Source of the DNA: a virus
Reading direction: 5' to 3' (one strand)
Virus record (IMG/VR): IMGVR_UViG_3300025698_000066
Location: 1 to 21,962 of that record
Length of the DNA: 21,962 bases
Every line of letters begins with the position of its first letter. Positions within the stretch are counted from its first letter, which is position 1. The position numbers were made by a program, and so were the translations under genes. Under the pieces are notes generated by a model. That model did not search any database and was not told where the DNA came from. It saw nothing but the letters and a program-made list of their open reading frames with translations. This document shows positions 2,815 through 16,877 of the stretch, in pieces.

Positions 2815-5364
2815 TTAATCACACACATCAATAATTCCAGTTCCATTAGGACTATACATTGACATGCAAGTAGAATTAACACTTATTTTAGCACCATTAT
2901 CGAACTTAACACTAACATTATCACTAATCCAAATAGCTTTATCTTTTAAACCACCACTACCATCCGCACCAGCAAATATTTTTAAAAAAGGTTCACCATC
3001 AATACTAAAATTGTAACCTTCTTCAGTGTTTATAGCGGGTGTTGAAGAAACACTCATGTCAACAAGATTAATAACTCCCGAGTCTTCAACAATTCTAATA
3101 GCCCCAATACTAAAATTGGCACCAGCCTCGATAACATCATCAGTATTAACTTTAAACATATTAACAAAACTTGTTCCAGCGTTATTTAATGCTCTAAGCC
3201 AAACATTATTATTAAGTGTTAAATTGTCAGTCACGTTTATTTGAGCAAACACCACTTCACTTTTTTCCAAAACATCTTGGTCCATAGAATAAAGTTCATA
3301 ATTTCCTTGTCCCGTGTTTAATGTTGCAAATTCTGGATTACTGGTTGTGGTTAATGCTTGTCCCGTATTATACGTTAACTGGGTATCACCAATACCGTCG
3401 GCAGTAACTGAAAGACCATCAGAGTCTTGTGTTAACGCAGTGTTTCCTGCAACACTAAAAGTTGTGCCCGAAATATTTATTCCATTACCAGCAGTATAAG
3501 TTGTGTCAGTGTCTCTAGCATCAATAGTAACATTAAGAACTGTTTCATTAAAAGTTATAGTTCCAGAACTAGTTATAGCTCCACCAGTCAAATAAATATC
3601 ATCTGTAGCCACACTCGTAACAGTTCCAACTGTAAGTGTAGTATCACAATCAATTTCTGTATTAGACAAATCATAAATGCAAGTTTTTCCATCTGTAAGT
3701 GTTCCAAGGTCTGTTCCTTCAAGCATATCACTATTATTAACATTTAAGTCTGCTTGACTCGTTTCTGAGTCCCAAGTTGTTGCAATGTCTGATGTTCCTG
3801 TTAAATTTCCTATAAAACTTGTTGCAGTTATATTATAGCTTCCCGCATCCCAATTAGCAGTTAATTCATTATTACCGTCTTTATGAATACTTAAAGGGTC
3901 AATCTCTTGCCCAACAGGTGTTCCAAAACCTTTACTCAATATTACCCAATCAAAATTATGAACATGAGCAGTATTAGGGGGACCAGCCACTTGATAAAAC
4001 CTAACCCTGATAGGATTACTACCATTTACATGGTCTGCATAATTATAAACACCTAATGTTTTAATTTTGTAAGTTGTTGATTCAGTTAATATTCCATAAT
4101 CTTCCCATGAAGAATCTGAATAATCCCATATTTGAATAGACGTTGCGTGTCCTGAATCCAAATTAGTTTTATGTCTTATTATTAATGTTGAAAACTCTGT
4201 AACACCAGTAAAATTGACTATTAATTCATAATCAGAATTTGTTTCGGTTACATTATAAGGAACACCATTATACGTTTGAATATCTGCCAAATTCCCTGTC
4301 CCAGTACCAGTTACGACATCAACAGAACTAGCATTAAAATAATTAACTTCCAATTTGGATTCATTAAACAATAGTTCTGTACCATCAAAAGTGTTCCAAG
4401 TATCACCACTAGTCCAATCATAACTACCATAAAAGTTATCAGCTGTAACACTATAACCTGTAGCATTAATATTAGCAGTTGTATTATAATAAGTACCATC
4501 ATCAGTAATATCCCCTGCGTTTATATCGCTAGGTGAACCAAGGTCATCCCAGTAATCACTAGAGTTAACATTAAGATTAGCTTCATCACCTACAACTATC
4601 CAAGTTCCATCATCAGTGATATCATCACTTCCAATATCACTAGGAGTGTTTAAAGAATCCCAATAATCACTACTATTAACATTCAAATCAGCCTGACTTG
4701 TTTCACCATCCCAAGTAGTAGCTGTATCAGCAATACCGGAAGTAGTAGAGTGATTAACGTTTAAGTCTCCTTCACTAGAAGTATTTATTTTTAAATTTAT
4801 TAAAGTTGCTTGAGTAACATTATTAGCAGCTTGAAGACTTATTTCTGATGCTAAATCAGTAATATTAGCATACCTATTATCTCCACTAGTAGTATTAAAA
4901 CTAAGACTATCACTTTTATTATAAATCCAAGTACCATCTAAAGCCCATTTAGAATCAAAATTGCTACGAGCATCAATAGTATTATTCAAATCAGATTCGT
5001 TAACATTAAACTCTGTACTATTAAGGTACAAGTAGTCACCAGCACTATACTTAGTATCATTATTTCTAGCATCAATAGTAGAATTCATTAATGTTTCATT
5101 AAAACTTAAAACGTTACCACTATCATAAAACCAATCACTAGCAAAACTTGTTACACTAGCCCAAAGAGTAGCAATACTAGCAGTACCGGTAAGGTCACCA
5201 GTAAAGTTACCATAAAAGTTAGAAGCATTAATGTCCACCCCATTAATAATAGAGTAAACACTACGAAGATTAATATTTCCCTGAGGAGTAAAATCCACAG
5301 CACAAACACTAATCGATAATATTATTATAAACACTATTATTGATAAAAAAAACTTTTTCATCAT
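2815..5364 (-). CDS. Secreted tail-fibre-like repeat protein
   Basis: About 849 residues. The frame extends to a GTG at 5373, but AGGAG sits only 1 nt before that GTG and 8 nt before the ATG at 5364, so I take the ATG. The N-terminus is a clear Sec signal peptide (MMKKFF, about 15 hydrophobic residues, then SVCAVDF). The rest is low-complexity repeats typical of fibre shafts: several copies of TW(D/N)xETSQADLNVNxSDYW, DDITDDGTW and FNETxxNxTIDAR. A mid section near residues 340-490 looks like a beta-sandwich, and the C-terminal third carries the phage-fibre phrase QALTTTSNPEFATLNTG. The C-terminus (NSTCMSMYSP...IIDVCD) resembles endings I associate with DPANN surface proteins. It is rich in N-x-S/T sequons. 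The likely role is an exported fibre or adhesin paired with the next gene. The signal peptide is unusual for a virion fibre. Confidence 0.72.
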   Translation of the reverse strand: MMKKFFLSIIVFIIILSISVCAVDFTPQGNINLRSVYSIINGVDINASNFYGNFTGDLTGTASIATLWASVTSFASDWFYDSGNVLSFNETLMNSTIDARNNDTKYSAGDYLYLNSTEFNVNESDLNNTIDARSNFDSKWALDGTWIYNKSDSLSFNTTSGDNRYANITDLASEISLQAANNVTQATLINLKINTSSEGDLNVNHSTTSGIADTATTWDGETSQADLNVNSSDYWDSLNTPSDIGSDDITDDGTWIVVGDEANLNVNSSDYWDDLGSPSDINAGDITDDGTYYNTTANINATGYSVTADNFYGSYDWTSGDTWNTFDGTELLFNESKLEVNYFNASSVDVVTGTGTGNLADIQTYNGVPYNVTETNSDYELIVNFTGVTEFSTLIIRHKTNLDSGHATSIQIWDYSDSSWEDYGILTESTTYKIKTLGVYNYADHVNGSNPIRVRFYQVAGPPNTAHVHNFDWVILSKGFGTPVGQEIDPLSIHKDGNNELTANWDAGSYNITATSFIGNLTGTSDIATTWDSETSQADLNVNNSDMLEGTDLGTLTDGKTCIYDLSNTEIDCDTTLTVGTVTSVATDDIYLTGGAITSSGTITFNETVLNVTIDARDTDTTYTAGNGINISGTTFSVAGNTALTQDSDGLSVTADGIGDTQLTYNTGQALTTTSNPEFATLNTGQGNYELYSMDQDVLEKSEVVFAQINVTDNLTLNNNVWLRALNNAGTSFVNMFKVNTDDVIEAGANFSIGAIRIVEDSGVINLVDMSVSSTPAINTEEGYNFSIDGEPFLKIFAGADGSGGLKDKAIWISDNVSVKFDNGAKISVNSTCMSMYSPNGTGIIDVCD

Positions 5365-5381
5365 TTTACACACTCCTTTCC

Positions 5382-5849
5382 TTAAACGGTTACGTTTCCT
5401 TGACCATCAATAGGAACCCATTCACAAATAAACTTTATAACACCAGCAGTAATATTAGCAGTGGCAACAGTTCCAATAATGTCACCACTATTAGCAGCAC
5501 CAGTAACAATGATTTTTTCTGCAACAACACTACTAGCTTCAACGTTAGTATCAGGACTAGCATCATGCCATAACTCGCTAACATCAATATCTGTTCCCGT
5601 AGTTTGAGCAATAATAGCCGCAGTAGCAGTAGCAGTGCCAATTTCGAGAGTTGAGCTTCCACCAACAAGAGTAGTAGTACAAATAGCATAAACTTTTACT
5701 TTAACATTACCAACAACGGTGAATATAGCGAAAGGATTACCCGTACCATCATAGTCTCCAGTAGCGTTAGCTGTTCCACCAACAAAAGTGATTTCTTTTG
5801 TGATTGTCCTATATGATTCTTTATGAAAATAATTACTTGCATCAGCCAT
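5382..5849 (-). CDS. Small virion structural protein (putative head or fibre accessory)
   Basis: 155 residues with no signal peptide. The start is supported by GAGGT 8 nt before the ATG. It is glycine-, alanine- and threonine-rich and predicted all-beta: a first half with ITFVGGTANATGDYDG and FTVVGNVKVKVYAICTTTLVG, and a second half with ELWHDASPDTNVEAS, KIIVTGAANSGDIIGTVATANITAG and FICEWVPI. This style (a 'DIIGTV...ITAG.I.F...W.P' ending) recurs in small structural proteins of tailed phages found near capsid or fibre genes; I cannot assign a named family. It lies between the beta-helix protein and the secreted fibre protein. A stem-loop with a T-rich tract separates it from the upstream gene, and a TTTAAATA box lies about 21 nt before its ATG, so it may begin its own transcript. 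Confidence 0.6.
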   Translation of the reverse strand: MADASNYFHKESYRTITKEITFVGGTANATGDYDGTGNPFAIFTVVGNVKVKVYAICTTTLVGGSSTLEIGTATATAAIIAQTTGTDIDVSELWHDASPDTNVEASSVVAEKIIVTGAANSGDIIGTVATANITAGVIKFICEWVPIDGQGNVTV

Positions 5850-5866
5850 GTTTTTTACCTCGTATA

Positions 5867-5874
5867 TATTTAAA
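5867..5874 (-). promoter_or_regulatory. Candidate TATA box before the 155-residue virion protein
   Basis: TTTAAATA on the minus strand, centred about 21 nt upstream of the ATG at 5849 and directly after a T-rich terminator-like tract. The spacing is shorter than the ~28 nt of the other two boxes, and GAGGT lies between the box and the ATG, so this assignment is tentative. Confidence 0.35.
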
Positions 5875-5875
5875 A

Positions 5876-5914
5876 AATAAAAAAATAAAAAAATGAACTA
5901 GGTTTAACTAGTTC
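5876..5914 (-). terminator. Stem-loop plus T-rich tract terminator
   Basis: On the minus strand GAACTAG and CTAGTTC form a perfect 7-bp stem (5895-5914) around a 6-nt loop that contains part of the TAA stop of the beta-helix gene. Three T runs separated by single A residues follow (5876-5893). This is the layout of a terminator at the end of the preceding gene. Confidence 0.6.
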
Positions 5915-6923
5915 TTGTTATTATTGCGTCTTCTTGATAATTAGCCACCATGAAAACTGTTGTCGGAATCACTCCACCAGTAACTGTTCCATCACCAAGT
6001 GTTAAACCCGTAAATCCATGCATGTTATTAGAGTATACTCCCACACAACCAGTCAATTCACAATTAACATTCTCATCACCTGAACTAAGTGCCGGGTCAC
6101 AAGGAAAAATATTATTATCAATAATAACACCATTCACTCCACTTCCACCAGCAAGGTATAAATTACAATTTACGTTTGCTGCAGGACCACTAAACAAATT
6201 ATCTTTAATTACCCAATCCTGTGGCACCGTATTACTTGTTCCTACTAAACAAATATCTATCTCGTTTTTATAGAAATGATTTCCTACAAAACTACATTGC
6301 CAACAGTTACCAGCACTAGTTGTATAAATTGCTCCACCTGATGCAGCCACAGTTGTTGTAACTTTACAATTCTTAAAATGACAACCAACAATCATAGTAC
6401 CAAAAGCGCACTTAGCAGCGTAATCATCATCAAGCAATATTCCACCACCAGTACTACTAGCACCATTAAAACCCAAATTTGCTATTAAACAACCAGGCGC
6501 CCTAACAGTAAGCATAGCAGTTGTACCAGCACCAATCTTTATTTGAGGCAAACCACCTTGAGTGTTACCACGACTAACACCAATAATAGATAAACTACTT
6601 GTTGCAGCAGGAATAATAATTGTTTCAGCATAACTAGTAGGGTCACCAGTAAAGTCAGTTAAGTCTTTTGCAGTAACATAAATTGTGTCACCAGGACCAG
6701 CAGCCGTAACAGCTAACTGTATTGTACTAAAAGCTTTACCCCAACTTTTACCATCATTTGTTGTAGCACCATTAGTACCATCAACATACCAAGTTGCACC
6801 TTCACCACTTCCACCAAGAGAAGCATTTGCAAAAGTTATATCTTCACTAAAACTATAAGGTCCGTTAGTGTACGGAGGAGCAGCTATTCCACCACTCGGA
6901 ATTGTTCTAAAACCATTACCCAT
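5904..6923 (-). CDS. Right-handed beta-helix (pectate-lyase-like) spike or fibre protein
   Basis: 339 residues from the ATG at 6923, chosen because GAGGGAG lies 9 nt upstream. The frame opens 12 codons earlier, but nothing supports a start there. The first ~50 residues are a Gly/Pro/Ser-rich linker. Then comes WYVDGTNGATTNDGKSWGKAFSTIQLAV, the usual entry strand of a parallel beta-helix domain, followed by regular short strands with Asn/Gly turns (LIANLGFNG, FGTMIVGCHFKNC, WQCSFVGNHFYKNEID, WVIKDNLFSGP, GVIIDNNIF). Viral proteins of this type are usually trimeric spikes or fibres, some with polysaccharide lyase or hydrolase activity; I cannot point to catalytic residues. Unlike the two large proteins downstream it has no signal peptide, so it could be assembled on the particle in the cytoplasm. 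Confidence 0.7.
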   Translation of the reverse strand: MGNGFRTIPSGGIAAPPYTNGPYSFSEDITFANASLGGSGEGATWYVDGTNGATTNDGKSWGKAFSTIQLAVTAAGPGDTIYVTAKDLTDFTGDPTSYAETIIIPAATSSLSIIGVSRGNTQGGLPQIKIGAGTTAMLTVRAPGCLIANLGFNGASSTGGGILLDDDYAAKCAFGTMIVGCHFKNCKVTTTVAASGGAIYTTSAGNCWQCSFVGNHFYKNEIDICLVGTSNTVPQDWVIKDNLFSGPAANVNCNLYLAGGSGVNGVIIDNNIFPCDPALSSGDENVNCELTGCVGVYSNNMHGFTGLTLGDGTVTGGVIPTTVFMVANYQEDAIITRTS

Positions 6924-7616: not shown

Positions 7617-8681
7617 TTACAAGATACCGTACATTTGTGTACAAGCACCTTCGAAAGTAAGAACAGGAGTTATATACTCTTTTAGAATATAAACGTATGT
7701 ATCGTTCTCACTAGCTTTTTCTTCATAAGTCATATCTTGTAGTACAGCCATAAAAAAGTATCTCATATCTAAAAACAAGATTCTTCGACTAGCACTAGTT
7801 GTAGGCATAAAACGGTCTCTAATAAACATTACACCATCAAACTCGAAAGCGTCTGGAATACCAAAACCGAGAGTTGCCATACTAGGATTAGTAACTTGTC
7901 TTTGTAAGTCAAGAAGTAAACCTTTAATATAGTTATGTGTACTAGCATCTGTAACAGCAAGGTTTACTTGACCATTAGCATTGAAACTAGTAGCGAACTC
8001 AGCCCTTATTTGTGCAAGTGTAGGATAAGCACTAGACAAATTTGTAGTATTAGTTGTAATACTAGTAATTAAGCCGTTTGGTTCTTCAGGGTTAGTACTT
8101 GCATCACCATTAATAATAGCATCTTCTTCAGCTTCCATCATACTAGCAGTTTTAACACTCAAATCTAGTTGTGAGGGGTCAATAAAACCTTTCATACTAG
8201 CAATAGAGGGTCCACTAATTCTACCTTTAGCATACAAAAACTTAACAAAAACACTTATTCTATCATAAGTATCAACCTGGTCAGCGATAGCAGCGTTTTC
8301 AGCATACCATGCAGCTCCACCTTTAGCAGTTAAAGGAATATAATCATAAGTTTGACCTTTAATAGCTCTACGAGGAGTCAAGTTTCTCATAGGAGTTTGC
8401 CTTATTGTTCTATTAACTATTGTACTATCAACGTATACTGGAATTAAAGCTGTACCAACAGTACCTGCACCACCTGTTTGAGTATCAATACTTGCTTTAC
8501 TCATAACATGTTTCTTTAAGGCATCTAGCCTATTATTTTTTGTCCAAGGATTTGAATACTCAACACTGTAACCGCCAGTAGAATCTCTTCTAGCTAATTC
8601 GATAGCGAATGCACTACCAAACATGTCATAGCATTTGTCTGCTTCAAATTCACTTGGAGCACTTTTAAACATACTTTCCAT
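7617..8681 (-). CDS. HK97-fold major capsid protein
   Basis: 354 residues from the ATG at 8681, which has GAAGGTG 9 nt upstream. The reading frame continues 19 codons upstream into the protease gene, but those have no translation signal. The N-terminal ~75 residues are mostly helical and charged (FEADKCYDMFGSAFAIELARR...LDALKKHVMSKASID) and may be a delta-like region. The HK97 fold follows: GTVGTALIPVYVDSTIVNR and TPMRNLTPRRAIKGQTYDYIPLT (N-arm and E-loop region), AAWYAENAAIADQVDTYDRISVFVKFLYAKGRISGPS, a P-domain spine helix with EAEEDAIINGDASTNPEEPNGLI, and an A-domain C-terminus. The NGD...PNGL motif is characteristic of this family. It sits directly after protease-scaffold, the standard order, and would be the substrate of that protease. 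Confidence 0.9.
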   Translation of the reverse strand: MESMFKSAPSEFEADKCYDMFGSAFAIELARRDSTGGYSVEYSNPWTKNNRLDALKKHVMSKASIDTQTGGAGTVGTALIPVYVDSTIVNRTIRQTPMRNLTPRRAIKGQTYDYIPLTAKGGAAWYAENAAIADQVDTYDRISVFVKFLYAKGRISGPSIASMKGFIDPSQLDLSVKTASMMEAEEDAIINGDASTNPEEPNGLITSITTNTTNLSSAYPTLAQIRAEFATSFNANGQVNLAVTDASTHNYIKGLLLDLQRQVTNPSMATLGFGIPDAFEFDGVMFIRDRFMPTTSASRRILFLDMRYFFMAVLQDMTYEEKASENDTYVYILKEYITPVLTFEGACTQMYGIL

Positions 8682-8697
8682 TTTATTTTTGCACCTT

Positions 8698-9192
8698 CTA
8701 ATTTGTTTGTATAATAGGGAGTTCACCCGTATTATCATTTGTTTTAATATCTTTGTTTAAGTCATCACTTGACTCGAATCTTGCTTTAAAAACAGGACTC
8801 TTTTTTAAGTTATCAACTTCTTTTCTTAAACTGTCAATTTCGGATAACAACTTTTTTTTGTCATCTTCGTCTTCGTCGTCTTTTGGTTTTTCTTTAGGCT
8901 TTTTGCCTTTTTCTGCTTCAACAACTGGTTCAGTTTCAACAATTGGTTCTACAACCTTTTCGGGTTCTTCAACAACTACTGGTTCTTCAACAACTGGTTC
9001 AACAGGTTCAACCTTTTCGGGTTCTTCAACAACTACTGGTTCTTCAACAACTGGTTCAACAGGTTCAACCTTTTCAGGTTCCACAACTACTTCTTCTTTT
9101 TTGTCAGGATTAACAACTTCTTTCAAATCTTCTAAATCTTTCTTCAAACCATTAATCACAACATTCAATTTTTCATATTCTTTACTAGCCAT
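8698..9192 (-). CDS. Nested in-frame scaffold protein (internal start within the protease gene)
   Basis: A 164-residue product beginning at the internal ATG at 9192, in frame with the protease ORF and sharing its stop. The start is preceded by AAGGAGGT 4 nt upstream, one of the strongest Shine-Dalgarno matches in the window and much stronger than the site of the full-length gene. It falls exactly at the junction between the protease domain and the coiled-coil/acidic region. Nested scaffolds are known from lambda (Nu3 inside C). The expected role is to give free scaffold in excess over protease-scaffold fusion during procapsid assembly. Internal initiation is inferred from sequence only. Confidence 0.65.
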   Translation of the reverse strand: MASKEYEKLNVVINGLKKDLEDLKEVVNPDKKEEVVVEPEKVEPVEPVVEEPVVVEEPEKVEPVEPVVEEPVVVEEPEKVVEPIVETEPVVEAEKGKKPKEKPKDDEDEDDKKKLLSEIDSLRKEVDNLKKSPVFKARFESSDDLNKDIKTNDNTGELPIIQTN

Positions 9193-9726
9193 ATTGACCT
9201 CCTTACTTTTTTTATTATTAATAAACATTTTAGCAACAGCCATTGCTTGACCATGCCTATTACTAGGAATAGCAACAAAGCTTGCTTCTAAAAGTTCAAG
9301 AACAGTATAAACGGTTCTTTTAACACCATCCACTTCTTTTTCCACAAAATCTTTAACTATAGCACCAATACTAATACCTATAATTGCACCCTCATCAAGC
9401 ATTCCTTTAATCATTCTAGCCAAAGGATTACTCAAAAACCATTTAGGTTCAGCAATATAAGCATAATGCTCACCAATCTTTTTAACACGACGATTAGTCC
9501 ACTCACCAACCATGTTCTCAACTTTGTTCTCATGATTAACCAAAATGCTAACACGACCATCATCTTTACTTAAAGTTTTCAATGCTTCAACACCAACGAT
9601 TTCTCCATCACGGTCAACACTATTATCGCTAAGAACAGCAATATAAGAGTCTCCTTGTTTCATAAGCGTTTGGAACAATTCAATATTATCATAACCTTGA
9701 GTTCTTTTTTCCATATTAATTACCAT
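8698..9726 (-). CDS. HK97-type prohead protease fused to an acidic scaffold domain
   Basis: About 342 residues from the ATG at 9726; an ATG at 9714 in the same frame is an alternative, and upstream codons belong to the portal gene. Residues ~1-175 are a U35-type prohead protease: the candidate catalytic His in ILVNHENKV, the Ser in AIIGISIGAIV, and the LLEASFVAIPSN block that follows. A second domain begins at MASKEYEKLN, with a predicted coiled coil (VINGLKKDLEDLKEV), an acidic Pro/Val/Glu-rich stretch made of 19-residue tandem repeats, a Lys/Asp-rich stretch, and another coiled coil (LLSEIDSLRKEVDNLKK). This is the classic layout of a scaffolding protein fused to its protease. The scaffold portion also has its own ribosome site (separate entry). 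The capsid gene follows 16 nt downstream. Confidence 0.85.
   Translation of the reverse strand: MVINMEKRTQGYDNIELFQTLMKQGDSYIAVLSDNSVDRDGEIVGVEALKTLSKDDGRVSILVNHENKVENMVGEWTNRRVKKIGEHYAYIAEPKWFLSNPLARMIKGMLDEGAIIGISIGAIVKDFVEKEVDGVKRTVYTVLELLEASFVAIPSNRHGQAMAVAKMFINNKKSKEVNMASKEYEKLNVVINGLKKDLEDLKEVVNPDKKEEVVVEPEKVEPVEPVVEEPVVVEEPEKVEPVEPVVEEPVVVEEPEKVVEPIVETEPVVEAEKGKKPKEKPKDDEDEDDKKKLLSEIDSLRKEVDNLKKSPVFKARFESSDDLNKDIKTNDNTGELPIIQTN
8955..9080 (-). repeat. 57-bp tandem repeat in the scaffold region
   Basis: Two full copies of a 57-bp unit (8955-9011 and 9012-9068) plus a partial third, encoding a 19-residue period rich in Glu, Pro and Val (EEPEKVEPVEPVVEEPVVV). The copies are almost identical at DNA level, so the array could change length by slippage. 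It forms a probably extended acidic linker between two coiled coils. Confidence 0.85.
9197..9204 (-). promoter_or_regulatory. Internal Shine-Dalgarno site for the nested scaffold
   Basis: AAGGAGGT on the minus strand, 4 nt before the in-frame ATG at 9192, inside the protease-scaffold gene. Such a site is unlikely in the middle of a gene by chance, and its position at the domain boundary supports a dedicated scaffold start. Confidence 0.7.
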
Positions 9727-9733
9727 TTTTTTT

Positions 9734-11941
9734 TTATACTTGCACAAACACAACAGTATCACGGTCATTAGGCATAAACGGAGGGTTCTGACCTCTATAC
9801 TGCTTACCATTATACTCTACAACAAACTCTTCATCAAGAGGAATACTCTTTTCTTTACTACCATAACTTTCACCCATAAGCTTACTAACTTCACTAGTCC
9901 TAGCATCATAAGTAATAATCAAATACTTTTCTAATTCCAACTCAGACTCTTTACTACTTAACAACTTATTCTCATTAAAAAAACGAGACGTTTCAGTCCT
10001 GGCAATTCTTTCAGCCTGAGAATCAACACTACCTTTAAACAAGTCTTTAATATGGTCTTTGATAACAGTTTTTGTAGCACCATTTTTCAAATCTGTTTCA
10101 ACCTGTTTCAAAATCTTTAATTGCAACACTTTGGTCGCACCTTTAATACCACTCCATTGTTTACCAATAGGAGTAATATAACCTTCAACTTGTTGATAAG
10201 TCAAACTCTTAAGCTTCTCATTCATTTTATCAGTGAAACCAATTTGCACATCTAACTCTTTTTCTGCACTATCTAAACCACTAACCATTCCTTGCTTAAC
10301 AAAATGTTTAACAGCAACCAAAAAAGGAAAACTGTTAATACCACTAAAAAGTATTCTAATAAAGTCACCAAACTCTTTATGCATTTTGCCAACATCCAAA
10401 TTGTCAACAGCTTTCAAAGCCTCTTTTTCCCATTTTTTGTAAACTTTTTTATAAAAATCGTAATAGTCACTAGAATCATTCATAATGTTTTTTACATCAT
10501 CATTAAAACTTTTTTCTAATTTGAAACTTTTATCTTCCATATCATTATCTTTAGAATCATCTTCAGGCTTATTATCAAAAGGGTTATCTCCACCAAACAA
10601 GCTAGGAGTCTTATTATAAGGTTCATCACCCCACTCAACAGGTTCTTTACCTTTACTTCTACGATACTCATTAATAGTAAGAGCACCCTTATCAAGCTCT
10701 TGCATTGCCTGGTCAAACTCAACCTGTTCTTCAACCTGGTCTTTAGGAACATACTTAAAAACGAAACCCAATTCTTTATCCTGAAACCTTTCTTTCAATA
10801 TAATATTTGTTATTCTTTCTAACTCTTTATAATAAGGCTTAATAGCATTCTTTACAGTAATACGTTCTTGACCAGCCTGATTACCTTGATTAACATTCTC
10901 ATGAAAACCGGCTTCAGTAGGACTAACACCAAACGCTCCAAACACTAAATGATGATACCATTTTTGACCATCCAACCATTCCATATCTCTTTGAGTCATA
11001 TTAAAGTTTTGGAAAACAGCATCCTTAAGATTATTAAACAATAACCTGTGAGGTTTACCTTTTGTTTGATTAACCCAAGACTTTTTCATCTTTTCCAAAC
11101 TTTCAGGGTTAGCACCAGGAAGAGTAAGCATTCCAGCAGGAATAGCATTATCTTTAAAAAAATCTTTATTATACCTAGTACTCTGAATCAAAAGTTCTAA
11201 CACTTGCACAATGCTTTGAACAGGACTAAAACCGTACAAAGAATAACTACGCTTATTCATCATACTATAAACTACTTCGTCAGGATAAAACATTATGGGA
11301 TTAGTTTTAGGATTCTTAAAACTATACTGGTAGTAAGCTTGAAGCCTACGATAAATATCAATTTGTTTTAGAAACGTTCCAGAATCAGCAGGAAACACTT
11401 GAACAAGTTCTCTATCACCAAAGTCTTTAAGAACAATTCTTAACTCTTTTCCTTTTTCTCTACCGAGCTCGTCTCTTACTTCAACACTTTTTTCTTCATA
11501 ACTATCAGCACTAAACACGTTAACAATTGTTCCAGCATCAATCTCTCCTAAATCGGTAATAATCATTGAATGAATATCGTTAATCGAGTTATGGTTAGTG
11601 TTAAGGTCAAGCAAAAAGTTTTTAGCTTCTTCAATCTCGTTAGTGTAGTCTGTTTCGTCTTCAGAATCTTTTTTCACAAGGTCCCATTTAGTATTGGTAA
11701 CTTCTTTTTTAATAGTGCTTAACACCATTTGTACCCATGCGCTTTTGCTAAAATCTCTTATTTCTGTAACGTTAAGGTTTCTTGGTTGTCCTATTCTTGC
11801 TGTGAAAAACCATTCAGGAAACACTGGTAGTTTATCGCTACTTTTTCCGAAGTTTCCTGTGAAGAAAGCCAAATCTTTAACTCCACTTACGAATTTAGAA
11901 ATTGTTTCTTTTAAACTAGTTTTTTGTTTAGATGGAGCCAT
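9734..11941 (-). CDS. Portal protein fused to a MuF-like head protein
   Basis: 735 residues. Residues ~1-430 are a portal of the HK97/SPP1 broad family: the early segment VTEIRDFSKSAWVQMVLSTIKKEV, a middle with YRRLQAYYQYSFKN, FYPDEVVYSMMNKRSYSLYGFSPVQS and YNKDFFKDNAIPAGMLTLPG, then GAFGVSPTEAGFHENVNQGNQAGQE near residue 345. A charged linker (~450-480, GGDNPFDNKPEDDSKDND) joins it to a helical region and a C-terminal Mu gpF-like module with IARTETSRFFNEN (ARTET at 647-651) and YDARTSEV. Most phages encode these as separate neighbours; here they are one chain. The final motif reads PPFMPNDRD where the family usually has PPxHPNCRC. The ATG directly follows an AAATTTAAAT-type stretch with no Shine-Dalgarno; a TATA box 28 nt upstream suggests a leaderless message. 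Confidence 0.88.
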   Translation of the reverse strand: MAPSKQKTSLKETISKFVSGVKDLAFFTGNFGKSSDKLPVFPEWFFTARIGQPRNLNVTEIRDFSKSAWVQMVLSTIKKEVTNTKWDLVKKDSEDETDYTNEIEEAKNFLLDLNTNHNSINDIHSMIITDLGEIDAGTIVNVFSADSYEEKSVEVRDELGREKGKELRIVLKDFGDRELVQVFPADSGTFLKQIDIYRRLQAYYQYSFKNPKTNPIMFYPDEVVYSMMNKRSYSLYGFSPVQSIVQVLELLIQSTRYNKDFFKDNAIPAGMLTLPGANPESLEKMKKSWVNQTKGKPHRLLFNNLKDAVFQNFNMTQRDMEWLDGQKWYHHLVFGAFGVSPTEAGFHENVNQGNQAGQERITVKNAIKPYYKELERITNIILKERFQDKELGFVFKYVPKDQVEEQVEFDQAMQELDKGALTINEYRRSKGKEPVEWGDEPYNKTPSLFGGDNPFDNKPEDDSKDNDMEDKSFKLEKSFNDDVKNIMNDSSDYYDFYKKVYKKWEKEALKAVDNLDVGKMHKEFGDFIRILFSGINSFPFLVAVKHFVKQGMVSGLDSAEKELDVQIGFTDKMNEKLKSLTYQQVEGYITPIGKQWSGIKGATKVLQLKILKQVETDLKNGATKTVIKDHIKDLFKGSVDSQAERIARTETSRFFNENKLLSSKESELELEKYLIITYDARTSEVSKLMGESYGSKEKSIPLDEEFVVEYNGKQYRGQNPPFMPNDRDTVVFVQV

Positions 11942-11965
11942 ATTTAAATGTAATGATTAACTTAT

Positions 11966-11973
11966 TATTTAAA
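11966..11973 (-). promoter_or_regulatory. Archaeal TATA box for leaderless portal transcript
   Basis: TTTAAATA on the minus strand centred 28 nt before the portal ATG (11941). With the archaeal TATA-to-start spacing of about 26 nt, transcription would begin at or within a few bases of the ATG, and no Shine-Dalgarno is present. The same box and spacing recur before the gene starting at 15312. Confidence 0.65.
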
Positions 11974-11989
11974 GTGTTGCCTTATTAAG

Positions 11990-12060
11990 AGCAGACGTCC
12001 AGATTTGAACTGGGATTTTCAGCTTACAGGGCTGACGTTCTACCGTTGAACTACGAATGC
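11990..12060 (-). tRNA. tRNA-Thr (anticodon TGT), atypical
   Basis: 71 nt including the discriminator. It folds as a cloverleaf: D arm GTTC/GAAC with a GG-containing loop, anticodon stem TCAGC/GCTGA around loop CCTGTAA (anticodon TGT, reads ACA), and T loop TTCAAAT. First pairs G1-C72 and C2-G71 and discriminator T73 match archaeal tRNA-Thr identity. Oddities: position 33 is C rather than the near-universal T; acceptor pairs 4-69 (T-C) and 5-68 (T-T) and the outermost T-stem pair are mismatched. No CCA is encoded. It could be a functional divergent viral tRNA or one starting to decay. It begins one base after the tRNA-Pro ends. Confidence 0.72.
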
Positions 12061-12061
12061 A

Positions 12062-12132
12062 TGGGACATCTCAGAATCAAACTGAGGTCTTGGCAGTCCA
12101 AGTGCCAGATGCTATCACTACACCAATATCCC
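12062..12132 (-). tRNA. tRNA-Pro (anticodon TGG)
   Basis: 71 nt including discriminator A73. The acceptor stem GGGATAT/ATGTCCC is fully paired with one T-G wobble, anticodon stem TGGCA/TGCCA encloses CTTGGAC (anticodon TGG, reads CCA), and T stem CTCAG/CTGAG encloses TTTGATT. The D stem (GTGT/GCAT) includes wobbles. No CCA is encoded. It follows the stop of the 156-residue gene by 14 nt, separated by T-runs, and abuts tRNA-Thr with a single base between them, so the two must be cut from one transcript. Confidence 0.85.
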
Positions 12133-12153
12133 AAAAAACAAAAAAACTAAAAA
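12133..12153 (-). terminator. T-run tract between the 156-residue gene and the tRNAs
   Basis: Minus-strand T runs of 5, 7 and 6 bases, overlapping the TAG stop of the upstream gene and ending directly at the first base of tRNA-Pro. It looks like an archaeal U-tract terminator, yet no separate tRNA promoter is visible, so the tRNAs may depend on read-through. Confidence 0.45.
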
Positions 12154-12617
12154 GGATTAACCAACAACCTATCAACAAAAACAAACCTTTTAACAACATC
12201 CTGCTCAATCTCAAAAACAATCCGAGGATGAGTAAAAATACGCTGCCTAAACTGAGCAAACAACTGAATCCCATTATCCTTATCACTCATACCCTTATCA
12301 AACAAGTAACCCTTAATAGACTCTTCTTTAACAACACCAACAATTTCTTCAATAATATTCTTCAACTTAGACACCTGAACCTCATTAGCCCACTCCTCAA
12401 ACTTCACAATTTTAGCAAACTCCTCCTTCCAATCCTTCAAGTTCTGCTCAATCTTAGGAATATTATCCTTAGCATTCTGCAAATCCTTAACAAGCTTATC
12501 AACATTTTGTCTACAACCCTTAACAGCCTGCAACACTTGTTTACTATCCATTTCTTCATCTTCAATACTAGTCTTCATAACAATCTTGTTACCTTTTTGT
12601 TTAAACACTCTTCTCAT
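12147..12617 (-). CDS. Coiled-coil protein of unknown function, head module
   Basis: 156 residues; the ATG overlaps the stop of the upstream gene (TAATG), with GGAGAGTG upstream. It is charged and mostly helical, with a long predicted coiled coil from about residue 25 to 100 (KQVLQAVKGCRQNVDKLVKDLQNAKDNIPKIEQNL, FAKIVKFEEWANEVQVSKLKNIIEEIV). The C-terminus (FAQFRQRIFTHPRIVFEIEQDVVKRFVFVDRLL) is less charged. I recognise no family. Sitting between terminase and portal and translationally coupled to the gene before it, it may act in packaging or head assembly; this is positional inference. Its sense strand is G/T-rich like TerL and unlike the A-rich accessory genes. Confidence 0.65.
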   Translation of the reverse strand: MRRVFKQKGNKIVMKTSIEDEEMDSKQVLQAVKGCRQNVDKLVKDLQNAKDNIPKIEQNLKDWKEEFAKIVKFEEWANEVQVSKLKNIIEEIVGVVKEESIKGYLFDKGMSDKDNGIQLFAQFRQRIFTHPRIVFEIEQDVVKRFVFVDRLLVNPF

Positions 12618-13057
12618 TATAATTCACTCTCCTTAAACTCTTCTTTCTTTAAAGATTTTCTAAACTCTATTCTTTCAATAACAATCTTTTCCAAAACGTA
12701 ATTAGCATCAACCAACGTTTTTCTTGTTTCACCACGGTCATTAGTAAACACAGAGTATCGTTTGTTTATTTCTTTATTACCAGTTTTATCTTTTTTGTAA
12801 ACCTTGTAATTTATAACGCCAACACCATTACTCATAGTAGCACTAAGACCACAAACAAACATTTTAGGCGGTTCAGTCTTCCAAACATTAATGGTTCCCA
12901 TAGGAATCTTAGTATGTTTAGCACTACTCAACTCTCTTAATTGTTTATACCTTTTTTTGAGTCTTGAATGTACAGGCATTAAAATGTTAACGTCTATTGC
13001 TTCCGCAGCTTTTTCTATAACTCCATAATTCTTTGTGCTATTATCTTTTTCACTCAT
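12617..13057 (-). CDS. Unknown protein, packaging/head module
   Basis: 146 residues with GAGGT 8 nt before the ATG. The N-terminal third has a basic helical patch (VHSRLKKRYKQLREL); the middle has short beta-like stretches (IPMGTINVWKTEPPKMFVCGLSATM, VGVINYKVYKKD); the C-terminus is helical and charged (VDANYVLEKIVIERIEFRKSLKKEEFKE). No motif allows assignment. It starts 14 bp after the wHTH gene and overlaps the next gene by one base, so it belongs to the TerL-to-coiled-coil operon. Confidence 0.6.
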   Translation of the reverse strand: MSEKDNSTKNYGVIEKAAEAIDVNILMPVHSRLKKRYKQLRELSSAKHTKIPMGTINVWKTEPPKMFVCGLSATMSNGVGVINYKVYKKDKTGNKEINKRYSVFTNDRGETRKTLVDANYVLEKIVIERIEFRKSLKKEEFKESEL

Positions 13058-13071
13058 TTGTTTTTACCTCA

Positions 13072-13302
13072 CTATACTTTTTTGTATCTATAAAAAGTTA
13101 CCAACTTATAACAATTAGCAAACTTTTTACCAACAATACGCGTATCACAGATTTGTGTTTCAAAACCTTCCAAACGCCCAATAATTCTTAAATCCTTATA
13201 AACATTTTTAGGATTCAAACTCAATTCTTCTATTAATTGTTTTCCACTAAACCATTGACAAACATGTTCTTCTAAAAAGGTTTCTATTACGAACCTGCTC
13301 AC
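13072..13302 (-). CDS. Winged-helix DNA-binding protein
   Basis: I place the start at the GTG at 13302, which overlaps the TGA of the preceding microprotein (GTGA) with AAGG just before it, giving 76 residues. A longer frame opens at a GTG at 13362, but its extra 20 residues lie over the zinc-ribbon gene in another frame. The sequence reads as a winged helix: a first helix (FVIETFLEEHVCQWF), a helix-turn-helix (SGKQLIEELSLNPKNVYKDLRIIGRLEGF) and a wing (TQICDTRIVGKKFANCYKLVTFY). It lies in the packaging operon after TerL and could be a regulator or a DNA-contacting packaging factor. The function is inferred from fold only. Confidence 0.6.
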   Translation of the reverse strand: MSRFVIETFLEEHVCQWFSGKQLIEELSLNPKNVYKDLRIIGRLEGFETQICDTRIVGKKFANCYKLVTFYRYKKV

Positions 13303-13391
13303 CTTAACTTTTTCCCGCAATAATTGCAGTACTTTTTCTCCTTTTTTTGTTCTTGTTTGCACATTTTACACTCACCAAAATACTTTTTCAT
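13299..13391 (-). CDS. 30-residue zinc-ribbon microprotein overlapping TerL
   Basis: A short ORF starting at an ATG that overlaps the TerL stop (ATGA) and ending in a TGA that overlaps the GTG of the wHTH gene (GTGA). It encodes 30 residues with Cys at 8, 11, 22 and 25: ECKMCK, a ten-residue Lys/Glu/Gln spacer, then YCNYCGKKL. Two CxxC knuckles, the second followed by GKKL, are the hallmark of a zinc ribbon, and all four ligands fit in this one short frame. Both overlaps are of the translational-coupling type used elsewhere in this genome. It could instead be the N-terminal zinc ribbon of a protein split from the wHTH by a frameshift. Confidence 0.65.
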   Translation of the reverse strand: MKKYFGECKMCKQEQKKEKKYCNYCGKKLR

Positions 13392-14710
13392 ATGAACCCC
13401 ATAATAGCCTTAGCCTCCAACTCAAACACCATACGCATCATTAACGTATCAGCAAAATCAGGACTACCAGCCAAATTCTCCTTAATATCATCCTTCTTCA
13501 TAATACGCTGCTTCTTCTCAGTATCATCAATATCCAAACTCTTAATCATACTCAACTCATTAACAATCTGCTCCCTAACACCAGGGTCACCAGTCTTCAC
13601 ACGAATCCGCCTCTGATTAACCATTTCGGCAAGCTTAAAATAACACTCACTACGCAAATTAGCAAAAGTCTCAGAGTTAACAGCCTTACCACCACCATGA
13701 AAAGTTTTAATACCCTCCATATACGATTCCAAATAGTTCCCCATACCATCACTATCAGCAACAACATGACTCCTAGGAACATGACACTTCTTACTAGTCA
13801 ACTTCAAAGCTTGTTCAATACTCTTACCATCACTAATACTTTGAACAATAGGAAACTCACAAACCAAACCCTTCCAACTACTAACAACAAACTTATCACG
13901 CCCCTTCATAGCAAGGTCCGAACTAATATATCTTTCATCAGATTCAAGAATAAACTCATTACTAAACATGTCAATAATGGCATCATACTCAAAAATGCTA
14001 TTAGGGTCATCATCATACTCCCAATTACCAAACATCAACCTCTGCTTTTTGCTCGGGTCACTAAGCTGAGACAAACTAGCCTTATAACTGCTTGCAGTAT
14101 AAGGATTATCAAAATACAAACTTTGAATAAAACAATAATTATCTGGAAGAGTCTTATTTTTCCAACGCTTATAAAACACAGTATACAACCAATTCTTTTT
14201 CGGATTACAACTCAAAAAAATAAAAGCATGAATGTTTAACTCTTTATTAAAATGCCTATTAATACGAGATTTAAGCGTGTCAAAAGCTCCAAAGTGAACC
14301 TCACCAGCCTCTTCAATAAAACCACCAGTAAACTCCAAACTACCAAACCGCTCATACAACGGGTCACTAGGCAAATACTTAAGGTCCAACAAGTCAATAC
14401 GACTACCATTAACAAACTCAATATAGTTATACTGACCATTAAGCTTATAACAAGACTTAGGAAGATTATGAAAACGCATAACTTTCTGAAAAGTAACATA
14501 AGTACTAGCCATCAAACGTTTTAACTCATTCCTACCCATAAACCATTTAGTTCCAGGATAAGCTAAACACATAACAATAAGCCATTCACAACCAAACCAA
14601 CTCTTACCCCCTCCAGCGCCACCACCGAAAAGTAAAAAGTCAGTCTGTTTGTTCTGAGTTATCTTCCATGCTTGGCTTTGTTTCTTCGTTGGTTTTAATT
14701 GTATTTTCAT
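13388..14710 (-). CDS. terL: Terminase large subunit (TerL)
   Basis: 440 residues. The N-terminal ATPase has Walker A GGGAGGGKS (residues ~29-37), Walker B GGFIEEAGEV (~130) and a coupling motif FLSCNPKKNW (~166). The C-terminal RNase H-like nuclease shows acidic residues at SSDLAMKGRDKFV, VVADSDGMG and GSPDFADTLMM. Length and motif order are normal for the phage terminase family (Terminase_6/PBSX-like). It cuts concatemeric genomes and drives DNA into the procapsid through the portal. The gene overlaps TerS by 71 nt and the zinc-ribbon microprotein by 4 nt. No Shine-Dalgarno precedes its ATG, so coupling to TerS is likely. Past the overlap the sense strand becomes strongly G/T-rich. Confidence 0.95.
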   Translation of the reverse strand: MKIQLKPTKKQSQAWKITQNKQTDFLLFGGGAGGGKSWFGCEWLIVMCLAYPGTKWFMGRNELKRLMASTYVTFQKVMRFHNLPKSCYKLNGQYNYIEFVNGSRIDLLDLKYLPSDPLYERFGSLEFTGGFIEEAGEVHFGAFDTLKSRINRHFNKELNIHAFIFLSCNPKKNWLYTVFYKRWKNKTLPDNYCFIQSLYFDNPYTASSYKASLSQLSDPSKKQRLMFGNWEYDDDPNSIFEYDAIIDMFSNEFILESDERYISSDLAMKGRDKFVVSSWKGLVCEFPIVQSISDGKSIEQALKLTSKKCHVPRSHVVADSDGMGNYLESYMEGIKTFHGGGKAVNSETFANLRSECYFKLAEMVNQRRIRVKTGDPGVREQIVNELSMIKSLDIDDTEKKQRIMKKDDIKENLAGSPDFADTLMMRMVFELEAKAIMGFI

Positions 14711-15044
14711 TAGCGGAAGTTAATATTTCGAAAGTCACATTATTAAATGCTTGACCCTCATGTTCAATCACTTGTTTTTCAACATAACCACGATTTTTCA
14801 TTAAAGTTTTTGCTAAGAACATTTGAACTTTGAAATTACCATTTTTAGCATGTTCTAAAAGTCCTTCTTCAACCACATCAAGAACCCTATCTTTAAAATC
14901 GTTAAAAGCTTGTTTAAACTCTGCATGAGAATCCATCCAAGACCTATAAGTGCTTCTAGTAATATTAATACTATCACATGTTTTTCCAATGTTGTAATTG
15001 TTTTTAACGTAGTTTTTTAGAAACTGTATTTGTTTTACTTTCAT
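14640..15044 (-). CDS. terS: Terminase small subunit (TerS)
   Basis: 134 residues. The N-terminal ~45 residues form a helix-turn-helix of the phBC6A51 type (KQIQFLKNYVKNNYNIGKTCDSINITRSTYRSWMDSHAEF). This leads into helices (FKQAFNDFKDRVLDVVEEGLLEHAKNG) typical of the oligomerisation domain, with LAKTLMKNRGYVEK afterwards, and ends in an acidic disordered tail. It recognises the packaging site and loads TerL. The position immediately before TerL with a 71-nt overlap fits. It overlaps the upstream 54-residue ORF by 41 nt. Confidence 0.88.
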   Translation of the reverse strand: MKVKQIQFLKNYVKNNYNIGKTCDSINITRSTYRSWMDSHAEFKQAFNDFKDRVLDVVEEGLLEHAKNGNFKVQMFLAKTLMKNRGYVEKQVIEHEGQAFNNVTFEILTSANENTIKTNEETKPSMEDNSEQTD

Positions 15045-15923: not shown

Positions 15924-16877
15924 TTAAAAGTTATCTAAAAAACTTTTAAGTTTTTGTAACTTTTTTTTTGTATCAATAGTTATTCTGGATATTTCAAAAT
16001 TGCAAGATATTTTTAAATTAATTCTTCCAGAAACTCTAGCATTACCAGAAACTCTAGCATTACCATAAACTCTAGCATCACCATAAACTCTAGCATTACC
16101 AGAAACTCTAGCATCACCATAAACTCTAGCATCACCATAAACTATAGCATTACCAGAAACTCTAGCATCACCATAAACTATAGCATTACCATAAACTCTA
16201 GCATCACCATAAACCATAGCATCACCATAAACCCAAGCATTACCAGAAACTCTAGCATCACCATAAACTCTAGCATCACCATAAACCATAGCATCACCAT
16301 AAACCCAAGCATTACCATAAACTCTAGCATCACCATAAACCCAAGCATCACCATAAACCCAAGCATCACCATAAACTATAGCATTACCATAAACTCTAGC
16401 ATCACCAGAAACTCTAGCATCACCATAAACCCAAGCATTACCAGAAACTCTAGCATCACCATAAACTCTAGCATCACCATAAACTATAGCATCACCATAA
16501 ACCCAAGCATCACCATAAACCATAGCATCACCATAAACCCAAGCATCACCAGAAACTCTAGCATTACCATAAACTATAGCATTACCAGAAACTCTAGCAT
16601 CACCATAAACCATAGCATCACCATAAACTATAGCATCACCAGAAACCCAAGCATCACCATAAACCATAGCATCACCATAAACCCAAGCATTACCAGAAAC
16701 TCTAGCATCACCATTTTTTAGTTTTAATGATTCTACCCATCCACCAATAGTTCCTTTTGGTATAAGTCCAAACTTGTTTTTAATATCTACTTTAGCCCTT
16801 ATTTGAAATAGTTTAGTAATTCCATAAGTATCAATTTTACTTTTTTCAGTTAATTCAATTTTTATTTCATTAATCAT
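15924..16877 (-). CDS. YdcK-like left-handed beta-helix protein with 38 hexapeptide repeats
   Basis: 317 residues; AAGGAGG lies 4 nt before the ATG. Residues 1-55 are a cap (NEIKIELTEKSKI...YGITKLFQIRAKVDI...GLIPKGTIGGWVESLKLKNG); the GGWVE motif followed by short repeats is typical of YdcK-like phage and bacterial proteins. Residues ~56-283 are 38 consecutive copies of G-(D/N)-A-(R/W/M/I)-V-(Y/S), one per 18 bp, which should form an extended parallel beta-helix of about 12-13 turns. A C-terminal cap (INLKISCNFEISRITIDTKKKLQKLKSFLDNF) ends the coil. The function is unknown; ladder-like exposed Arg, Trp, Met and Ile columns suggest surface binding or oligomer formation. A 5-codon upstream ORF (16890-16907) with AAGGAG of its own precedes it, its stop touching the gene's Shine-Dalgarno. 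Confidence 0.8.
   Translation of the reverse strand: MINEIKIELTEKSKIDTYGITKLFQIRAKVDIKNKFGLIPKGTIGGWVESLKLKNGDARVSGNAWVYGDAMVYGDAWVSGDAIVYGDAMVYGDARVSGNAIVYGNARVSGDAWVYGDAMVYGDAWVYGDAIVYGDARVYGDARVSGNAWVYGDARVSGDARVYGNAIVYGDAWVYGDAWVYGDARVYGNAWVYGDAMVYGDARVYGDARVSGNAWVYGDAMVYGDARVYGNAIVYGDARVSGNAIVYGDARVYGDARVSGNARVYGDARVYGNARVSGNARVSGRINLKISCNFEISRITIDTKKKLQKLKSFLDNF
16029..16712 (-). repeat. 18-bp tandem repeat array, 38 copies
   Basis: Exactly 38 in-frame units of 18 bp, with no length variation. Every copy has GGT, GCT and GTT for Gly, Ala and Val. Variation is limited to GAT/AAT, one of AGA/TGG/ATG/ATA, and TAT/TCT. No synonymous difference occurs anywhere in the array. It is inside the YdcK-like gene and is not a CRISPR array. 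Confidence 0.97.

Follow-up and report, generated by a model that had tools for sequence, protein, structure and literature searches.

What keeps the tandem units of a viral gene identical at some codons and lets them differ at others, when every difference changes the amino acid? The question is raised by a locus in a tailed virus, IMG/VR record IMGVR_UViG_3300025698_000066, of which 21,962 bases were analysed (the window). An earlier reading of this DNA had taken the pattern as the mark of a repeat protein that is expanded and reshuffled by recombination or slippage and thereby offers a variable surface. Here we describe the array and the protein that contains it, compare them with relatives in other phages, and weigh the explanations for the observed variation.

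An array with invariant scaffold codons

Reading-frame analysis of positions 16029–16712 reveals 38 contiguous, in-frame units of 18 nt on the minus strand, which encode residues 56–283 of a 317-residue protein as a hexapeptide array, G[DN]A[RWMI]V[YS], in ten unit types; TRF independently reports a period of 18 and 38.2 copies at 16027–16714. The scaffold codons are invariant in 38 of 38 units (GGT for Gly, GCT for Ala and GTT for Val). The variable sites are an Asp/Asn codon (GAT in 26 units, AAT in 12), a four-way codon, hereafter X (AGA 18, TGG 9, ATA 6, ATG 5), and a Tyr/Ser codon (TAT 27, TCT 11), and a search for synonymous variants among the 38 units returned none. The codon description in the original prediction, i.e., 38 units with fixed Gly, Ala and Val codons and zero synonymous change, is exact.

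An assembly artefact is an unlikely source of the array, since the longest exact repeat within it is 70 bp and every 71-mer is unique, which makes it resolvable by usual read lengths, and since all 38 units recur in identical order in a second contig, IMGVR_UViG_3300022868_000005 (39,366 bp). This contig is the only other copy found; it is 100% identical to the window across all 21,962 bases, and is therefore the same virus and uninformative with respect to evolution.

Codon bias in the window is moderate (GGT 63%, GCT 64%, GTT 68%), and if codons are drawn independently at the frequencies of the remaining window sequence, uniformity of this degree has a probability of ~1e-43. Because the uniformity goes beyond both chance and codon bias, the sequences argue that the units are of recent common ancestry, or have been homogenised. 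The special meaning originally attached to the missing synonymous change, however, was overstated for this array: taken alone, the lack is weak evidence, because only about six substitutions are required. Six is the minimum from which the ten unit types can be derived, random changes that create no stop codon are synonymous in a quarter of cases, and the chance of zero synonymous changes among six is ~0.18, or ~0.06 if only replacements at the exposed codons are tolerated. Zero or one synonymous variant is also found in other long arrays, i.e., those of contigs L002 and L026 and of the phages Javan174, phiST1 (L097), phiRM10 (L113) and P26059A (L109). The search pattern that yielded contigs L002–L033 prescribes the scaffold codons, so the synonymous counts of these contigs are biased; the phage records L093–L119 were found by protein similarity and are free of this bias.

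A protein of the YdcK-type β-solenoid family

The gene that contains the array extends over 15924–16877 on the minus strand (ATG at 16877, stop codon ending at 15924). Its product starts with an N-terminal cap (residues 1–55; 16713–16877, minus strand) bearing the family motif LFQIRA...KGTIGGWVE, and ends in a 34-residue C-terminal tail (residues 284–317; 15927–16028, minus strand) with a predicted helix at residues 306–315; the longer C-terminal domain of many streptococcal relatives is absent. Pfam PF18836 (B_solenoid_ydck) matches in 15 stretches with an E value of 3.1e-58 (189 bits vs a gathering score of 30), the YdcK structures in the PDB (2f9c, 2pig) match with 4.4e-16, and phrog_7964 and phrog_5070, both annotated as of unknown function, match with 1.4e-100 and 3e-91, respectively. 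The cap shows the pattern L-x-x-I-x-A ... G-x-x-G-G, and its residues I25, G41, G44 and G45 are invariant in 14 family members (alignment A1). These matches place the protein in the known family of YdcK-type β-solenoid (PF18836) proteins, which is present in at least 66 of 50,697 phage records. It is not YdcK itself, because it scores 106 bits with the NCBIfam equivalog model NF040481 (YdcK_fam), under the curated cut-off of 350.

The closest known systems differ from the window protein. Salmonella YdcK shares the repeat model (E 3e-58), the N-terminal GGWV(E/D) motif and the β-solenoid fold predicted for the window protein, but its own repeats are degenerate and non-identical, whereas the window units are near-identical. 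The phage members assigned to phrog_7964/phrog_5070, e.g., Sfi19 orf229 and SFi18 gp229, share the cap, the GxAxVx array and the status of an accessory early-region gene; they have, however, 18 units and the streptococcal C-terminal domain, while the window array has 38 units with another exposed alphabet.

Structure prediction yields a strand every six residues, with pLDDT of about 90 at residues 91–160, but the whole model is weak: mean pLDDT was 66 without an alignment and 51 with one, i.e., adding relatives worsened the prediction. With these models, of moderate confidence at best, as queries, the Foldseek matches in the PDB were weak, and none reached E ≤ 0.001. The orientation of the side chains is taken instead from the hexapeptide rule [LIV]-[GAED]-X2-[STAV]-X, in which three hexapeptides form one coil (PMC3046976). 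V-Y-G-D-A-R fits this rule, and by the rule, rather than by a reliable model, Val and Ala would point inward, and the Asp/Asn, Arg/Trp/Met/Ile and Tyr/Ser positions would face the solvent.

Genomic context and dispensability

In the window, the array gene has as neighbours a YopX-like gene, small ORFs and a block of structural genes; terminase, portal and capsid lie at 7617–15044, and the array gene is outside this block. Two further features were noted in the window: adjacent genes for tRNA-Thr (TGT) and tRNA-Pro (TGG) at 11989–12133, between the portal gene and upstream small ORFs, and a second in-frame tandem repeat at 8952–9081 (57-nt period, 2.3 copies, 98% identical), which forms a Pro/Glu/Val-rich linker in the ORF at 8698–9810. 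Among genome contigs, a relative of the terminase was found only on DYGI01000003.1 (L120), from a Candidatus Microgenomatus MAG (43% identity), which gives a weak hint of a candidate-phyla-radiation host.

Similarity in terminase or portal led to 44 other loci, none of which carries an array within the DNA that was fetched. The region around Sfi19-type orf229 is matched by 272 Streptococcus phage records, five of which, representing three distinct phages (SFi18, CHPC919 and Sfi19), cover most of the gene-containing query; other Streptococcus phages have the flanks without the gene, and CHPC929 has 624 bases there instead of 1,401. By this comparison the array gene is an accessory (non-core) gene that is dispensable in relatives. 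In several phages it adjoins antirepressor, Cro-like, ERF, RecT or Mu Gam genes, and its position in relatives is therefore assigned to the early region.

Whole genes of the family are multiplied as well. Contig L003 carries at 9422–10642 a tandem pair of YdcK-type genes, both of 197 residues and with the same reading, that of a whole-gene duplication, and contig L019 carries at 3684–6538 five consecutive paralogues with a common N-terminal cap and swapped repeat modules; parts of such clusters recur in contigs L004, L005, L008, L010, L012, L018, L029 and L033. Some database labels appear to be wrong. All five Vibrio breoganii phage records label parts of the array as CRISPR spacers, an apparent misannotation of repeats that lie inside a coding frame, and in the Streptococcus phages Javan249 (L118) and Javan174 (L119) the YdcK-type gene is labelled 'glycerol kinase', apparently wrongly.

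Unit order and reshuffling

The original prediction of a recent expansion from a few unit types is weakened with respect to block duplication. Repeated blocks in the window array reach at most three units, no more than in shuffled order (P = 0.48), unlike those of phiST1, phiRM10 and contig L027. Recurring pairs and triplets are slightly above expectation (P about 0.05 and 0.04), and units 11 apart match nine times vs 2.8 expected (P = 0.002, uncorrected for the 12 lags tested), an excess that may be the remnant of a single duplication. Ser associates with Arg (P = 0.0009), and Asn tends to come after Ser (P = 0.006). Every combination of Asp or Asn with Arg, Trp and Ile is present, pointing to exchange within single 18-nt units. 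The picture that emerges from the sequence is of a homogenised scaffold with well-mixed exposed residues, whereas phiST1, phiRM10 and L027 carry freshly expanded blocks. A ladder of exposed side chains had been envisaged; an ordered one is not supported, as the variable residues show no three-unit (one-coil) periodicity, either in the window array or across 28 arrays. A period-4 order over the arrays (pooled z about 4.8) was dropped from consideration, as it comes mainly from phiST1. The array of this Streptococcus phage consists of near-perfect four-unit blocks, with a 23-unit repeated block at distance 4, and represents a fresh expansion.

Reshuffling itself can be followed in relatives. In the Streptococcus thermophilus phages SFi18, CHPC919 and Sfi19, the arrays are equally long and differ in the order of their units. 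Between SFi18 and CHPC919, 13 of 321 array bases differ, compared with four of 3,194 elsewhere (0/369 in the rest of the gene and 4/2,825 in the flanks), i.e., ~30 times the level of the surroundings (odds ratio 34, P = 4e-11); the changed codons comprise 11 replacements and no synonymous change, at constant length. A changed site was scored as templated if the new base, with its nine neighbours on either side, already occurs at another in-register place in the sister array, which is that of SFi18 in the first two comparisons. This holds for 10 of 13 sites from SFi18 to CHPC919 and nine of 10 from SFi18 to Sfi19, vs 3% of random replacements; binomial P values are indicative only, since sites of the same tract are not independent. 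Between CHPC919 and Sfi19, 3/14 sites are templated in one direction and 9/14 in the other. Recombination or gene conversion from unit to unit is the simplest reading of these arrays.

Further relatives show changes of length and order. The arrays of L018 and L019 are a seven-unit duplication apart in DNA that is 99.87% identical; array lengths differ among five Vibrio breoganii phages whose flanks are about 95–99.6% identical; and both the order and the number of units differ among four Edwardsiella phages with flanks that are mostly 98–99% identical. Three of the five Vibrio arrays are irregular, two being frameshifted inside the array (phages 1.139.B and 1.209.O; L098 and L094) and one containing an irregular unit, which may indicate that the phages can at times do without an intact protein, or may reflect sequencing error. 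A diversity-generating retroelement was considered and rejected, there being no PF00078 reverse transcriptase in the window or in the identical 39.4-kb contig, itself possibly incomplete.

Taken across relatives, reshuffling by recombination, as claimed for the window array, is well supported by comparison of arrays within the family. For the window virus itself the claim is less direct, as the differing relatives belong to other species and its only second copy is 100% identical throughout, so that the shared unit order has no bearing on the refuting condition named originally; by analogy, the same recombination is likely. We propose that the product is a YdcK-type parallel β-solenoid, in which the N-terminal cap is followed by 38 six-residue steps, and that the array evolves as in relatives, with units exchanging sequence by recombination, gene conversion or slippage. 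Such exchange would homogenise the scaffold codons and at the same time reassort a few pre-existing variants of the exposed residues. We regard this combination of fold and between-unit exchange as probable.

Diversity at exposed codons

Whether selection in addition keeps the exposed variants diverse was addressed with 16 phage arrays, one per lineage, by measuring heterozygosity among units. Under neutral drift, fourfold sites should match or exceed the exposed replacement sites in diversity. Mean heterozygosity is 0.52 at the exposed codon X (first two bases) and 0.21 at fourfold sites; the Tyr/Ser codon reaches 0.58 at its second base and the Asp/Asn codon 0.50 at its first, and X exceeds the fourfold sites in 15 of 16 arrays (Wilcoxon P = 3e-5). 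The exposed positions had been set beforehand by the hexapeptide rule and the window array, yet were already known to vary, and the test is to that extent not fully independent. It is at the level of the family, in the 16 arrays, that replacement diversity exceeds synonymous diversity at the exposed codons and the special meaning given to missing synonymous change gains support. The result supports maintenance of diversity at the exposed positions; an arms race and a need for a mixed surface composition both fit.

A reading that dispenses with diversifying selection and with a variable target is neutral turnover of a recombination-prone tandem repeat, whose buried positions are constrained while its surface drifts. 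It accommodates the window array, where a complete lack of synonymous change is not rare by chance, the changes between sister phages, which are mostly copies of existing units, the unit order, which changes freely and shows no periodicity of faces, and a gene that is dispensable and sometimes frameshifted. It is harder to reconcile with the low diversity of fourfold sites and with the moderate codon bias in the window, and we consider it a possible but lesser candidate.

Alternatively, the composition of the surface may be what is constrained: an otherwise identical repeat may need large and charged as well as small residues on its outside to stay soluble or to avoid aggregation, with their order irrelevant. 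The small alphabet of W, R, K, Q, E, M and L that recurs across arrays would be explained, as would the changeable unit order; however, identical neighbours are not avoided at lag 1 or lag 3 in the pooled arrays, and some arrays, e.g., that of phiST1, are near-perfectly periodic, which makes this explanation unlikely. Selection that keeps the exposed variants diverse, the second element of our proposal, stands at about even chances.

Candidate functions

With respect to function, we commit ourselves, as a tentative position rather than a demonstration, to a putative non-enzymatic scaffold or binding rod with a tunable surface that would act inside the cell, early in infection. Binding to a host target or anti-defence, as originally suggested, would be a guess, and PADLOC gave no match to a known defence protein. 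DNA mimicry is unlikely, the array being near neutral (26 Asp vs 18 Arg) and the sign of the net charge varying among relatives.

A polymer-forming rod like the bactofilins (PF04519), which have a β-helix of the six-residue period predicted here, is suggested by a Bactofilin score of 47.2 bits vs a gathering score of 27.9 and by the annotation of several relatives as 'polymer-forming cytoskeletal protein'. The match is, however, confined to the six-residue repeat, a far higher score is reached with the YdcK repeat model, and the bactofilin cut-off is missed by several relatives, so we hold this assignment to be improbable. Still less credit is given to a tail or receptor-binding part that alters host range: tail fibre and baseplate families in PHROG match weakly and are outweighed by far stronger matches to families of unknown function, and neither the early or accessory regions occupied in relatives nor the position outside the structural block in the window agrees with such a role.

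Another phage-encoded hexapeptide-repeat (left-handed β-helix) protein with a variable-number tandem repeat is the O-acetyltransferase NeuO of prophage CUS-3; there, however, a 7-nt repeat is what varies, in a phase-varying N-terminal extension beside the enzyme, whereas in the window protein the solenoid itself is the repeat, and a catalytic histidine is lacking. An LpxA-like acyltransferase, in line with the shared hexapeptide-repeat fold, weak matches to GlmU, LpxA and LpxD models and the label 'putative acyltransferase' on several relatives, is largely refuted and has next to no probability in our judgement, because the window protein contains no histidine among its 317 residues, while a catalytic histidine is common to the crystallised left-handed β-helix acyltransferases (PMC3046976), and the matches fall far under curated cut-offs; LpxA-type catalysis is thus unlikely and the label unfit.

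Implications

The fold family was already known; for its phage members no function turned up, and a search of the open-access literature found no paper that deals with what these proteins do or how they vary. The comparison of sister phages provides a directly testable case of array reshuffling that is templated and almost entirely amino-acid-changing. It is conceivable, though we would not put it above a speculative proposal, that YdcK-type arrays are a diversification device of phages that works without a dedicated enzyme: recombination among codon-identical units would reassort a small exposed alphabet on a fixed solenoid, and so present new binding surfaces to variable host factors at a higher rate than point mutation allows. 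With diversifying selection on the surface, the target would be a host factor met early in infection; without it, these arrays would be a clean example of gene conversion imitating positive selection.
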